The position numbers and the translations under genes are program-made. From the IMG/VR virus record IMGVR_UViG_3300042402_001646, positions 1-35,827 of that record: a stretch of DNA of 35,827 nt; one strand, given 5' to 3'. Each line of letters opens with the position of its first letter. Position 1 is the stretch's first letter. Below the pieces are notes generated by a model, which saw only the letters and a list, made by a program, of their open reading frames with translations, was not told the origin of the DNA and did no database searches. Source of the DNA: a virus. Below are positions 5,219-10,205 of the stretch, piece after piece.

Positions 5219-5542
5219 ATGACAATCAAAGGCACAATTAAGCGCATAGGCGCAACGACAACAGTTAGTGATGGAAAGTTTAGCAAACGCGAATTAGTAC
5301 TCACCACAACAGACCAGTACCCACAAATCGTATCAATTGAACTACAACAAAAAGCCTGCTCAATAGCGGATTCATTAACAGTAGGGCAAGACATTGAGGC
5401 TCACATTAACATCAGAGGTCGTGAGTGGACATCACCGCAAGGTGAAGTTAAGGTGTTCAACACTATTGCATGTTGGAAGATTGATAGTAATCCATTTACG
5501 GAGGCAGCAGCACCAAGTAATAATCAAGAAGTCCCATTTTAA
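5219..5542 (+). CDS. DUF3127 OB-fold protein, probable ssDNA-binding protein
   Basis: The body matches the DUF3127 pattern: an N-terminal IKGTIKRIG strand, KRELVLTTTDQYPQ in the middle, a conserved VGQDIEAHINIRGRE stretch and a C-terminal ACWKI strand. DUF3127 proteins are thought to adopt an OB fold. The protein ends in EVPF, resembling the acidic, hydrophobic tip (DDIPF type) that bacterial SSB proteins use to contact partners. Together with the following RecT-like gene this suggests binding of single-stranded DNA in replication or recombination. The ssDNA-binding role is inference; the domain call is good. Confidence 0.78.
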   Translation: MTIKGTIKRIGATTTVSDGKFSKRELVLTTTDQYPQIVSIELQQKACSIADSLTVGQDIEAHINIRGREWTSPQGEVKVFNTIACWKIDSNPFTEAAAPSNNQEVPF

Positions 5543-6754: not shown

Positions 6755-6770
6755 TTAATTTATATATTTA
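6739..6770 (+). promoter_or_regulatory. promoter driving the 6776-6870 leader RNA
   Basis: TTTG at 6739-6742 is separated by 20 nt from TATATTTA at 6763-6770 (one mismatch to TAnnTTTG). A start point near 6776-6778 is expected, just before the first strand of the structured leader. Confidence 0.55.
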
Positions 6771-6775
6771 CAAAG

Positions 6776-6870
6776 TTGTTTCGGTCTCACATTATAGAAA
6801 CATAATAATATTGGCCCTTATAGAGGCGCAAGGAAGTGAGACCCCTTGCAAATCTTTAAGGGCTTTTTTA
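6776..6870 (+). ncRNA. candidate structured RNA with pseudoknot and terminator-like end (leader A)
   Basis: Several complementary segments are interleaved. P1: GGTCTCAC (6783-6790) with GTGAGACC (6836-6843), 8 bp. P2: GCCCTTA (6814-6820) with TAAGGGC (6857-6863), 7 bp, followed by six T. P3: GCAAGG (6828-6833) with CCTTGC (6844-6849), whose 10-nt loop contains the second strand of P1. P1 and P2 cross, so they form a pseudoknot if both exist. An alternative hairpin CCCTT/AAGGG (6843-6847 with 6858-6862) before the T-run looks like an intrinsic terminator and competes with P2 and P3. The RNA could be a free sRNA or a leader attenuating the gene at 6883. Confidence 0.5.
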
Positions 6871-6882
6871 ATTTTATACACA

Positions 6883-7056
6883 ATGTACACATATTATTTA
6901 TGCAATGATGGAGGATTTAATACTATTGAACTTCCTATTTTAATTTTTTCAAATTCAGAATTTCACTATGATGAATTTTTTAGTAATTACAGAGTTGAAA
7001 AGCACGAATTAAATGACAATGATGAATTAATAATTATTTGCGAAAAAATTTATTAG
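6883..7056 (+). CDS. hypothetical protein, 57 aa
   Basis: Start chosen at ATG 6883, after the leader's T-run; an earlier TTG-type frame start would lie inside the structured RNA. The protein is acidic and aromatic, starting MYTYYLCNDGGFNTIELPI and ending in DNDELIIICEKIY. No family recognised. Its position directly after the leader makes it the likely regulated gene. Confidence 0.5.
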   Translation: MYTYYLCNDGGFNTIELPILIFSNSEFHYDEFFSNYRVEKHELNDNDELIIICEKIY

Positions 7057-7059
7057 CCA

Positions 7060-7188
7060 ATGAAAATATTTTTTATAAAATCACCAAGTGGCAAACTATA
7101 CACACTAAACGCTGAATCAAAGTTTCACGCGATACAAAAAGCAATAGTTAAGGATGACTTTAAGTATAATTCAAAGCAATACAAATGA
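7060..7188 (+). CDS. small hypothetical protein, 42 aa
   Basis: A short frame from ATG 7060 to TGA 7188. It begins MKIFFIKSPSGKLYTLNAES and continues FHAIQKAIVKDDFKYN, reading like a small beta-then-helix protein. It starts 3 nt after the previous stop and its stop overlaps the next start as ATGA (7185-7188), the packing seen across this genome, which supports it as a real gene. Confidence 0.5.
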   Translation: MKIFFIKSPSGKLYTLNAESKFHAIQKAIVKDDFKYNSKQYK

Positions 7189-8060
7189 ATCCTATTTTTA
7201 ATTATTACGAAGCCGACATCAAACGTAGCACTCCATTAGGTAGTGTTACGCTTGAATATCTTATAAACGCTATTAGAACACCTAAAAAGGACATCCGCAA
7301 TGTATTTGAGGAGATACGTATTGCAGAGGAAAAAAAAGACATGGCAACAAAGCAAGCATTGAAGTCAAAACTATATTCATTTACTCCATGTGTTTATGTT
7401 AACGGGCCGCGTAAGTATTCTAACATTCAACATTGGACTGGCTTACTTGTTTTGGATTTCGACCATTTAGCATCCGATGTGGCAGTTGAATTCAAAGAGT
7501 ATTTATTTAACGAATACAAATACATCATAACCGCGTGGTTATCCGCTTCGAGGCATGGTGTTCGCGCACTGGTTAAGATTCCGATTTGCACTTCGGTTGA
7601 TGAATTCAAACACTATTATGCAGGCATTGAGCGACACCTCAACTGTTACAATGGGTTTGATACCGCGCCAAAAAACTGCATTTTACCGATGTTTATCAGT
7701 TACGATGCCGATATTTTACACAGAAACGATGCGCAAACGTGGTCAACAAAACACATTGAAATTGTTAGGCCTGCAACAAAACAATACATAATTGATGACA
7801 AAACATCTGTTATTGAAAAGATTATTGCTAAACGTATTAATACCATAACCGATACTGGGCATATTATTTTAAGAGCAACTTCGTACTTGCTCGGAGGGTT
7901 TGTTGGCGCGAATTATATTGATTATAATGATGCCATTTCTTTAATCAATAACTTAATTGATTCGCAAAGTTACCTATCAAAAAAGCCTGATGTTTATAAG
8001 CAAACCGCAAAACAAATGGTGGATAAGGGTTTAAATTTTCCTACTTATCTATCTAAATAA
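7185..8060 (+). CDS. VirE_N / BT4734-like primase-type protein
   Basis: Residues about 60-180 match the BT4734/VirE N-terminal domain: SFTPCVYVNGPRKYSNI, then GLLVLDFDHL (DFD at 91-93), then SASRHGVRALVKIP at about 120-133, then a helix and ISYDADI at about 171-177. DFD and the SRHG segment correspond to metal and catalytic motifs of the archaeo-eukaryotic primase fold to which this domain is related. The remaining C-terminal about 90 residues have a helical region like those of primase-helicase linkers. The next large gene is a helicase, so the two likely work as a split primase-helicase at the replication origin. Domain call strong; priming activity is inferred. Confidence 0.8.
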   Translation: MNPIFNYYEADIKRSTPLGSVTLEYLINAIRTPKKDIRNVFEEIRIAEEKKDMATKQALKSKLYSFTPCVYVNGPRKYSNIQHWTGLLVLDFDHLASDVAVEFKEYLFNEYKYIITAWLSASRHGVRALVKIPICTSVDEFKHYYAGIERHLNCYNGFDTAPKNCILPMFISYDADILHRNDAQTWSTKHIEIVRPATKQYIIDDKTSVIEKIIAKRINTITDTGHIILRATSYLLGGFVGANYIDYNDAISLINNLIDSQSYLSKKPDVYKQTAKQMVDKGLNFPTYLSK

Positions 8061-8062
8061 AT

Positions 8063-8092
8063 TTTGCAATTAAAAATATTTAGTTATATTTG
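8063..8092 (+). promoter_or_regulatory. promoter driving the 8097-8196 leader
   Basis: TTTG at 8063-8066, an 18-nt spacer and TATATTTG at 8085-8092 followed by C. This is one of the best matches to the Bacteroidota promoter consensus in the window. Start point expected near 8097. Confidence 0.62.
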
Positions 8093-8096
8093 CATC

Positions 8097-8196
8097 GCTT
8101 ATTCAGTATGAAAACATTCAAAAATCCCATCATTTACACTGCCTAAAGTTACGACCGTAACAACTGGATAAGCCTTTGTATTTGATGGGTATTTTT
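8097..8196 (+). ncRNA. candidate pseudoknotted leader RNA (leader B)
   Basis: P1: GCTTATTCAGT (8097-8107) pairs with ACTGGATAAGC (8163-8173), 11 bp with one G-U. P2: AAAAATCCCATCA (8120-8132) pairs with TGATGGGTATTTTT (8183-8196), 13 bp with one bulged T. P3: GTTAC/GTAAC around a GACC tetraloop (8148-8161). The order is P1a, P2a, P3, P1b, P2b, so P1 and P2 cross as an H-type pseudoknot or as alternatives. P2 ends 3 nt before the ATG at 8200, so it would hide the start codon. The order of elements matches leader A although sequences differ. Confidence 0.5.
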
Positions 8197-8199
8197 ATT

Positions 8200-8388
8200 A
8201 TGAAAAACCAAAAAACAAAAAAAGAAAGATTAGAGTATCTTGCAGGATTAGCAATGCAAAGTTTTATTGTAAAAACTCAAAATAATTATGAATACTTTGA
8301 GCAAAAAAATATTAAACCTATATGTTTTGTTGCTATTCGAATTGCTCAAGAAATGATAAAACAAATTGATGAAAATGAACAAATTTAA
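8200..8388 (+). CDS. hypothetical protein, 62 aa
   Basis: Start chosen at ATG 8200, immediately after the structured leader; an upstream in-frame start at 8176 would lie within it. The protein is basic at its start (KNQKTKKERLEYLAG) and helical (VAIRIAQEMIKQIDENEQ). Unknown function. It overlaps the helicase gene by about 20 nt and is the first gene of the unit controlled by leader B. Confidence 0.55.
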   Translation: MKNQKTKKERLEYLAGLAMQSFIVKTQNNYEYFEQKNIKPICFVAIRIAQEMIKQIDENEQI

Positions 8389-9931
8389 GAAACCCGAAAA
8401 GAATTCAATCTACAACCCAGTAGATTGGTTTAATGAGTTTGGCACGTTTCAGCAAATATTTGAGGGCGATAAAAAATGTATTTCATTTTCAGATACGGAG
8501 GCAACTTATCCAGTTAGTGATGCAAGTGATTTGTCTAAAAGTCCTAATTTTATATTAAATAAAAACGGAAAGATTGACATTAAAAAGTCAAACCCATTTG
8601 ATTTAGCAACAGGGCAAAGCTTCAGTAAATTTATATTGTTGACAACGGTTAAATTTAAAGGCGATTACTTTCAAGCAATGAGTCACGTTTCTTATAATAT
8701 AATGCAAAACGAAATACCTTACATTCGCGTTGGCTCCGATTATTTTAAAGTAATTAAAAAAGATGACCGATATTCCGGAACTAATGTAATCTTAAAGTCA
8801 TGGAAAAAAGATGAAATAAAAGAGGATCATACGAAAAATATACTTTGCAAAATTTATAAGTTTGATGACTTCACAATTATTCCTAATAATGTGACTTTTA
8901 TTCCATCAAAAAACAATTGTTATAATTTGTATGCCAAATTCCCACATACAAAATATAGTGATACTGTTTACACCGATGACATTAGTGTAACACTTGGTTT
9001 ATTAAGTCACATCTTTGGCGAACAATTAGAGTTAGGTTTGAAGTACATGAAGTTGTTATACGAGTATCCTTGTCAAATATTGCCAGTGCTTTCTTTAGTT
9101 TCAACTGAAAGAGAAACTGGTAAGACAACCTTTTTAAATTATATTCAGATGTTATTTGGCGAAAATTCAACACTTATTAATCCAAGTGATTTAATGAGTA
9201 GCTTTAATGATGCCTATGCCACCAAGAATATAATTATGATTGATGAAACCGTAATTGAAAAGCAACACGTTGTTGAAAAACTTAAATCGTTGGCAACTGC
9301 AAAAACTATTTCAGTATCGCAAAAGTTTGTTCAACATTACAGCGTGCCATTCTTTGGTAAAATTATCGTTTGCACAAATAAGGAAACCGATTTTATGAGA
9401 ATAGATGACGAAGAGATACGCTTTTGGATTAGGAAAATTAACCCGATTGTTGGCAAAAAAAACACGAATATTGAAAATGATTTGTTTAATGAGATTCCTA
9501 AATTCCTTAAATATTTAGAACAACTTCCTGATATTGACTTTTCAAATTCTCGCATGGTATTCACTCAGGAGGAAATACAAACCGAATCGCTGGAACTTAT
9601 CAAAAAAGAAAGTAAAAACGGATTAAGAAAAGAACTTGAAATATACATCGAAGACTTTTTTAACAATAATAATTGTGATACATTTGAAGCAACAGCAAAA
9701 GATATAAAAGAGGAATGGTTTGAACATGATAGGGAAAAGATGTCTTACATTCTTAAAGTGCTTAAAAACGAAATGAAAATGTCACCACAACCGAATAAGT
9801 ATTATGTGCCATTTAATAAGACTAATATGTTGGATAAAAAGAAAGGAACTCCGTTTCTATTTGTGAGGGAAAATACTCAAACCGTTGAAAATGAATCTTA
9901 TAGTGATTATGAAAACAGACAACCATTTTAA
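8369..9931 (+). CDS. SF3-type replicative helicase (D5/primase-helicase like)
   Basis: An ATP-driven helicase likely unwinding the phage origin. The ATPase core is near the middle: Walker A STERETGKTT at about residues 245-254, Walker B IIMIDE at about 288-293, and the SF3 motif C segment GKIIVCTNK at about 330-338, followed by an arginine-rich RIDDEEIRFWIRK stretch. The N-terminal 200 residues include no clear zinc-binding primase motif, consistent with primase activity being in the previous gene. The C-terminal about 130 residues are charged, likely a DNA- or partner-binding domain. ATG 8369 is preferred to the TTG at 8366; ATG 8375 is also possible. The 520-aa length fits phage enzymes of this type. 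Confidence 0.85.
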   Translation: MKMNKFKKPEKNSIYNPVDWFNEFGTFQQIFEGDKKCISFSDTEATYPVSDASDLSKSPNFILNKNGKIDIKKSNPFDLATGQSFSKFILLTTVKFKGDYFQAMSHVSYNIMQNEIPYIRVGSDYFKVIKKDDRYSGTNVILKSWKKDEIKEDHTKNILCKIYKFDDFTIIPNNVTFIPSKNNCYNLYAKFPHTKYSDTVYTDDISVTLGLLSHIFGEQLELGLKYMKLLYEYPCQILPVLSLVSTERETGKTTFLNYIQMLFGENSTLINPSDLMSSFNDAYATKNIIMIDETVIEKQHVVEKLKSLATAKTISVSQKFVQHYSVPFFGKIIVCTNKETDFMRIDDEEIRFWIRKINPIVGKKNTNIENDLFNEIPKFLKYLEQLPDIDFSNSRMVFTQEEIQTESLELIKKESKNGLRKELEIYIEDFFNNNNCDTFEATAKDIKEEWFEHDREKMSYILKVLKNEMKMSPQPNKYYVPFNKTNMLDKKKGTPFLFVRENTQTVENESYSDYENRQPF

Positions 9932-10145
9932 TAGTAAAGTATTTTCTAAAAGTCTTTTCTATATTAAACTATTGATTACTAATTATTTAGAAAAAAATAG
10001 AAATAGAAAAGACATTTGGCAAACTACTATAAAAAATATTATCAAAAATAATAATAGGAATAGTTTTAGGCATTTACCTTTCTCTTTTTTCTATTTTTAT
10101 ATAAAATATAGTAGTAATAAGGGTTATAGCTTAGAAAAGACTTAG
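9909..10145 (+). CDS. doubtful hypothetical protein, 78 aa
   Basis: An open frame from ATG 9909 to TAG 10145, overlapping the end of the helicase by 23 nt. The product is very basic and rich in Asn, Lys and Phe (IKNIIKNNNRNSF, PFSFFYFYIKY). It crosses the TTAGAAAAGAC repeat cluster, so the frame could be a by-product of an origin region. No family recognised. Confidence 0.3.
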   Translation: MKTDNHFNSKVFSKSLFYIKLLITNYLEKNRNRKDIWQTTIKNIIKNNNRNSFRHLPFSFFYFYIKYSSNKGYSLEKT

Positions 10146-10205
10146 AAAAGTTATTAGAAAAGACTTAGAAAAAACTTTATTATCGTTTATGTTTTCTAAA
10201 ATCAA
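9941..10205. repeat. iteron-like repeat cluster, candidate replication origin
   Basis: The unit TAGAAAAGAC recurs. Inverted copy at 9945-9961 region (ATTTTCTAAAAGTCTTTTCT, 9941-9960). Direct copies: TAGAAAAGAC at 10004-10013, then TTAGAAAAGACTTAGAAAAG at 10131-10150 and the same start at 10154-10173. A half-unit in inverse orientation (TTTTCTAAAA) closes the region at 10192-10201. The two long copies start 23 bp apart, about two helical turns. The cluster is A+T-rich, immediately follows the helicase gene and precedes the nuclease, the usual place for a phage origin. Function inferred. Confidence 0.5.

Follow-up and report, generated by a model that had tools for sequence, protein, structure and literature searches.

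A family of pseudoknotted leader RNAs on small promoter cassettes in viruses of Bacteroidetes-type bacteria

Main finding

A conserved structured RNA leader almost certainly lies between the primase gene and the genes of a 62-aa protein and a replicative helicase in a virus of Bacteroidetes-type bacteria. The stretch of DNA analysed here, called the window, comprises positions 1 to 35,827 of IMG/VR record IMGVR_UViG_3300042402_001646. The window leader and its kin very probably form an uncatalogued family of gene-control RNAs, and these leaders move as promoter-plus-RNA cassettes. Judging from sequence and comparison, we give a probability of about 0.5 to the reading that the leader would act in cis as a pseudoknotted 5' attenuator, partial or conditional, on a small mobile promoter-leader cassette. 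To our knowledge, little is known about gene regulation in Bacteroidetes phages; here, a structured-RNA family absent from Rfam recurs with strong covariation, and its occurrence in cultured phages (Gundel_1, phi19:1 and probably 11b) makes it testable at the bench.

Promoter and fold of the window leader

The promoter claimed by an earlier note on this DNA is of the Bacteroidetes type, not of the E. coli sigma-70 type. The Bacteroidetes consensus is TTTG/TANNTTTG, with a -7 element TAHHTTTG and a G at -5 (PMC6847099). Counted from the G at -5 of the -7 box according to that rule, the predicted +1 coincides with the first base of the first stem, and the leader RNA would be about 100 nt long. 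As regards an antisense transcript, no opposite-strand promoter box was found close behind the window leader.

In the predicted fold (Table 1), the RNA 5' end forms a crossing helix with a strand inside the loop of a long helix, P2. The 11-bp stem, the 13-bp stem, their crossing and the small tetraloop hairpin all lie where the earlier note had placed them. The 13-bp stem, which had been described as ending just ahead of the start codon, is more than a mask for that codon: it is terminator-like, with an A-run pairing a U-run. Missing from that account were the terminator-like U-run, the mobility of the cassette and a second copy of the same architecture at 6775.

Table 1. Features of the two leaders and of neighbouring genes in the window
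Feature	Position	Strand	Remarks
-33 box TTTG	8063..8066	+	Directly 3' of primase stop codon (8058-8060); sequence and consensus (PMC6847099)
-7 box TATATTTG	8085..8092	+	Predicted transcription start G8097
Strand a of crossing (pseudoknot) helix, RNA 5' end	8097..8107	+	GCTTATTCAGT; 11 pairs with 8163-8173, one G-U; 100% paired in 6 distinct relatives, 5/11 pairs compensatory
A-rich linker ATGAAAACATTC	8108..8119	+	AAAAYATT core common to classes A, B and C with few exceptions (alignments)
5' strand of long helix P2	8120..8138	+	AAAAATCCCATCA 8120-8132, 13 pairs with TGATGGG-T-ATTTTT 8183-8196 (T8190 bulged); inner TACA 8135-8138, 4 bp with TGTA 8177-8180 (13+4-bp helix in all)
Small hairpin GTTAC-GACC-GTAAC, 5 bp	8148..8161	+	2/5 pairs compensatory
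Strand a' of crossing helix	8163..8173	+	ACTGGATAAGC
3' strand of P2	8177..8196	+	8177-8180, 8183-8189, 8191-8196; ends in U-run TATTTTT, terminator-like
-7-like box TATATTTA of second leader	6763..6770	+	
Second leader, same architecture, class E	6775..6875	+	Covariation in 12 distinct relatives
5' hairpin of second leader	6778-6782/6797-6801	+	
Kissing strand a GGTCTCAC / a' of second leader	6783-6790 / 6836-6843	+	
Hairpin b of second leader	6828-6833/6844-6849	+	
P2 of second leader	6814-6824/6853-6863	+	
U-run of second leader	6864-6875	+	
DUF3127 protein, predicted fold of single-stranded DNA-binding protein	5219..5542	+	Putative trans-acting partner
57-aa ORF behind second leader	6883..7056	+	No Pfam family
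BT4734-like primase gene, upstream of leader	7185..8060	+	Stop overlaps or abuts helicase start in leaderless relatives
62-aa ORF	8200..8388	+	No Pfam family; relatives conserve the start, ATG 8200
DUF5906 replicative helicase/primase-type protein	8378..9931	+	Class B or C leader directly upstream in relatives

Equally good crossing stems arose in 0 of 1000 dinucleotide shuffles of the window leader, and the nested part of the fold alone gives z = -3.3. In the 35.8 kb, the AT-rich stretch at about 9920-10020 is the sole other one to score as high or slightly higher for crossing stems; pairing alone is therefore not unique, and the comparative test decides.

That test was carried out on an alignment (A6) of six distinct relatives of the window leader (class A), including the much diverged L275, which was found by the class A covariance model. 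Pairing is kept in 99.5% of 197 base-pair cells, and in 11 of the 33 pairs both partners have changed (crossing helix 5, P2 4, hairpin 2), a result equalled by none of 500 shuffles. When partners were moved by 1-3 columns, 37-43% of cells remained paired, a comparison that favours the structure because it was first seen in one of the six sequences; the double changes are independent of that. The covariation analysis proposed by the earlier note shows paired bases that covary. The idea of chance inverted repeats without function draws on the fact that AT-rich DNA yields crossing stems and that another stretch of the window scores as high, but it is refuted by compensatory changes in three classes and by recurrence with promoter and start codon, and its probability is negligible.

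Around the leader, ATG 8185 (in frame, inside P2) was considered as a start and rejected; since it is ATA in relatives, ATG 8200 is taken as the start. The stretch behind the helicase gene (9950-10180) is possibly an origin or iteron region: at about 10130-10177, AT-rich DNA contains short direct repeats of the TTAGAAAAGAC type, and at about 9952-10013 there is an inverted repeat of 11 bp, GTCTTTTCTAT/ATAGAAAAGAC. The portal, terminase and structural proteins of the 35.8-kb record match PHROGs other than the T4-type ones, and the window virus is probably not a T4-type phage.

Leader classes sharing one architecture

The RNAs that relatives have between their primase and helicase genes differ from one another and follow a common architecture. 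In classes B and C, the order is: 5' hairpin, strand a, A-rich linker, P2, hairpin b (with a' in its loop), third hairpin, P2' and U-run. The 7-nt a and a' are fully complementary in 30 of 30 distinct class B/C sequences (one pair is G-U in L037); in the covariation analysis, which covered 17 of these 30, 99.2% of cells are paired and 26 of 36 pairs are compensated. In class E, strand a lies inside the loop of the 5' hairpin, which makes the interaction a kissing loop; across 12 distinct sequences, 98.1% of cells are paired and 17 of 30 pairs compensated. It is to this class that the second window copy belongs, which was found by the class B model and precedes the 57-aa ORF ahead of the primase gene. 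Different-looking leaders, termed class D, were seen in L078 (about 190-60 nt before position 2923) and L220 (G039:8207-8771); in L078, pairing is possible between the RNA 5' end and the loop of a terminator hairpin that precedes a start codon, that is, the same principle as in the other leaders without the shared linker.

Classes A, B and C have in common only the promoter, the AAAAYATT linker core and the U-run; the remaining sequence differs and the architecture stays. A pseudoknotted leader ahead of genes might suggest a metabolite riboswitch, and a response to a metabolite had been proposed for this one. But nearly all sequence outside the helices, promoter, A-rich linker and U-run varies between classes, with no pocket sequence conserved across them; because sequence changes in this way while architecture stays, a metabolite aptamer is unsupported. 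The downstream genes are, moreover, unrelated, and there is no Rfam match. Such a riboswitch is highly improbable.

Distribution in phages and genomes

Many IMG/VR contigs carry similar elements. So do isolate phages of Tenacibaculum and Cellulophaga and, with a weaker case, one of Flavobacterium. A scan for the architecture over 1.5 Mb of collected loci gave 47 distinct matches at a score of at least 50, 43 of them with a promoter-like box, and none at that score in a single-strand dinucleotide shuffle of the same DNA; having been built after examples had been seen, and with a few matches that are plainly coding-strand chance, the scan gauges recurrence and is not a blind discovery. Among the isolates, clear elements precede the antirepressor gene of Tenacibaculum phage Gundel_1 and gp030 of Cellulophaga phi19:1. 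Weaker ones precede a replication protein gene in Gundel_1 and PHG11b_62 in Flavobacterium 11b; these two score 45-46 against a noise of about 42-45 in those records, and what speaks for them is where promoter and start codon lie. No element was found in isolate phages 6H, phi39:1 and Bacteroides B40-8. Searches of the isolate phages (blastn with leaders, tblastn with the helicase) gave no homologous replication genes, and the blastn rows were at chance level, although closer inspection showed one of them, in Gundel_1, to be real.

In 85,000 bacterial and archaeal species genomes (GTDB), the class B/C pattern had 0 matches, a partial negative given that the scan was for the exact pattern; helicase profiles run against GTDB genome contigs led to two distant loci without clear leaders. 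A single genome can hold several elements: the 17.9-kb contig of L027 has four, with four different a/a' pairs.

Mobility and downstream genes

Many relatives without a leader have a primase stop codon that overlaps the start of the helicase gene; carriers have the -33 box, the -7 box, the RNA and the U-run between the two genes. In class B carriers, the last primase codons read LQNR or LQNK whatever the primase subtype. Copies of the RNA with 93-100% identity stand before genes that show no relationship over their first 100 nt (40-53% identity when measured in the same way, with gaps allowed), and close relatives can be without the element. These are the observations behind the statement that the leaders move as cassettes.

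What lies downstream varies. Besides the 62-aa ORF and the helicase gene, it can be a gene for an HNH_3 endonuclease, for a DUF6291 protein or for a weakly methylase-like protein. Presence of the RNA is not tied to that of the 62-aa ORF, each having been gained or lost independently (L035 versus L045). Class A leaders precede HNH_3 endonucleases, with NUMOD4 in 2 of 3; such leaders before HNH homing endonuclease genes were noted at other genomic sites (L049, L106, L107, L109), which suggests that the class A leader travels with, or is spread by, these genes. In L114 (IMGVR_UViG_3300044613_000756), a class B leader stands before a 722-aa protein whose sequence looks like a fusion of helicase and DNA methylase.

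Near-identical RNAs ahead of unrelated genes could also denote a free small RNA gene, that is, a promoter, a structured RNA of ~100-125 nt and a terminator, placed between genes, acting in trans and with the downstream gene as a passenger expressed through leaky read-through. The cassette does include a promoter and a terminator-like end, and the RNA begins at or beside a helix. But the start codon is 4-19 nt away in 43 of 46 cases, copies differ greatly outside the helices, even within one genome, so that few constant stretches remain through which they could share a target, and the element is inserted before a presumably essential helicase. A free small RNA is accordingly judged rather improbable.

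Possible mode of action

The leaders end in a stem followed by a U-run, as intrinsic terminators and attenuators do. After P2, the frequency of T is 0.83-1.0 at six positions, versus 0.29 upstream of other start codons, where T6 occurs in only 4 of 199; a T-run was among the collection criteria of the class B set, which bears on this statistic. From the end of P2 to the start codon there are 14-19 nt in most elements, and 4-19 nt in 43 of the 46 elements with a start codon. In L045, L047, L052, L053, L056, L073 and L074, the leader lies directly before the helicase gene. This gene is presumed essential, and another promoter would not fit in; any termination here would therefore have to be incomplete, and a strong unconditional terminator at this place would hardly be viable.

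In the attenuator reading, transcription would start at G8097 and the first ~80 nt would fold, the RNA 5' end pairing with a strand in the P2 loop; P2 and the U-run would then make an intrinsic-terminator-like end just before the start codon. Some polymerases would halt at the U-run, giving a ~100-nt RNA, and the remaining ones would read into the 62-aa gene and the helicase gene, with the pseudoknot setting or switching the fraction that reads through. Termination itself, its partial or conditional nature and any signal on the pseudoknot are presumed, as is the role of the pseudoknot in classes without an evident antiterminator. The reading draws on the conserved structure, promoter geometry, U-run, start-codon spacing, recurrence before unrelated genes and several copies per genome. 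The class B linker contains a second version of the 3' P2 strand; by pairing with the 5' P2 strand, this segment can form a competing antiterminator-like hairpin that covaries in part; it was not detected in classes C and E, nor, by eye, in the window leader. Against attenuation, the conserved pseudoknot is compatible with P2 and not exclusive of it, no switching route is evident, and the tight 3' spacing could come from genome compactness. A leader peptide, for which class A has an ATG in the linker, was discarded: the frames (12, 13, 25 and 34 aa, by eye) are not conserved, and class B lacks the ATG.

The main rival is a translational operator similar to that of T4 gene 32. T4 gp32 acts as a repressor of its own mRNA: it binds a pseudoknot and from there spreads across the A+U-rich segment that follows (PMC3014915). 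By analogy, a phage SSB would nucleate on the pseudoknot, spread over the U/A-rich stretch to the start codon and repress replication genes once single-stranded DNA is saturated. Here, too, a U/A-rich segment extends from the pseudoknot to the start codon; the window leaders lie in a replication operon (before the primase block and before the helicase), one Gundel_1 leader precedes a replication protein, and the operon encodes, at 5219-5539, the DUF3127 protein, whose AlphaFold model (mean pLDDT 77.7) has only single-stranded DNA-binding proteins among its top 50 Foldseek matches (best E 1.8e-5). The C-terminal tip of this protein (...QEVPF) resembles SSB tails. But the U-run stands immediately behind the stem, as in terminators; the SSB gene at 5219 is itself without such a leader (the gap to the preceding ORF is about 10 nt); leaders also precede HNH endonuclease, methylase-like and antirepressor genes; and no conserved protein-binding sequence was found. 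Such an operator seems unlikely; if it were true, the leaders would be a much larger case of it.

The 5'-terminal position at +1, the structure-driven conservation and the location in early or replication operons would also suit an RNA that modifies RNA polymerase, by analogy with HK022 put-like antitermination (a precedent in PMC9378689), or a 5' mRNA stability element. Neither by itself explains the U-run, and the conserved sequence core expected of a polymerase-binding RNA is missing; both are improbable.

As to the earlier proposal that the leader controls the 8200 gene and the helicase, a conserved structured leader at that place is strongly supported by covariation, by promoter and start-codon geometry and by relatives with a leader directly before the helicase. 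The suggested response to phage replication state is possible, considering that the leaders lie in the replication operon and that an SSB-fold protein is encoded 3 kb upstream.

More speculatively, and with considerable doubt, the attenuator reading may extend to a superfamily of phage promoter-pseudoknot-terminator cassettes, whose read-through would be controlled by a pseudoknot, kissing or linear, that passes through a terminator. With up to four copies per genome and mutually different kissing sequences, each gene would have its own insulated RNA switch, and the cassettes would serve as exchangeable regulatory joints for plugging in new genes.

Comparison with known systems

The leaders are very probably a new family of cis-regulatory phage leaders, placed in none of the families tested. 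With Rfam 15 at the gathering threshold, no match was obtained in the window, in the class A-E loci or in isolate Gundel_1; below threshold, the window leader had no plausible match, and phi19:1 had none up to E=1. No description of these leaders was found in the openly accessible literature searched; in that literature, pseudoknot-based control of read-through, if the attenuator reading is true, would likewise be without description.

Among catalogued motifs, STAXI is a tandemly repeated pseudoknot motif near DNA-handling genes, and Flavo-1 is a Bacteroidetes RNA motif (PMC2864571). The leaders share the pseudoknot with STAXI, but no tandem structure was seen here; Flavo-1 (RF01705), although from Bacteroidetes, gave no match.

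With the gene 32 operator of T4, T2 and RB69, the leaders share (i) the position in a phage mRNA leader; (ii) a pseudoknot and then a U/A-rich stretch at the start codon; (iii) a replication operon; and (iv) an SSB-fold protein. They differ from it in the terminator-like stem and U-run, in their many unrelated targets and in the several different copies per genome, and the SSB gene itself has no leader of this kind. Classical transcription attenuators likewise have a leader with a terminator-like hairpin and U-run before the first gene, and class B has a competing hairpin with partial covariation; here, however, there is neither a leader peptide nor a known sensor, the pseudoknot passes through the terminator loop, and the window class has no evident antiterminator.

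Finally, the PeSL cassettes of T4-type phages are mobile promoter/stem-loop motifs (Arbiol 2010 and Comeau 2014, as cited in PMC4503421). As far as the definition given in PMC4503421 goes, the likeness is one of analogy: a promoter and a terminator-like structure between genes, tied to gene shuffling. In contrast, a Bacteroidetes promoter here precedes a structured RNA, which would be transcribed as a leader with a covarying pseudoknot, and both phages and hosts are others. On that definition, PeSL cassettes are the nearest analogue for a mobile promoter-terminator cassette.
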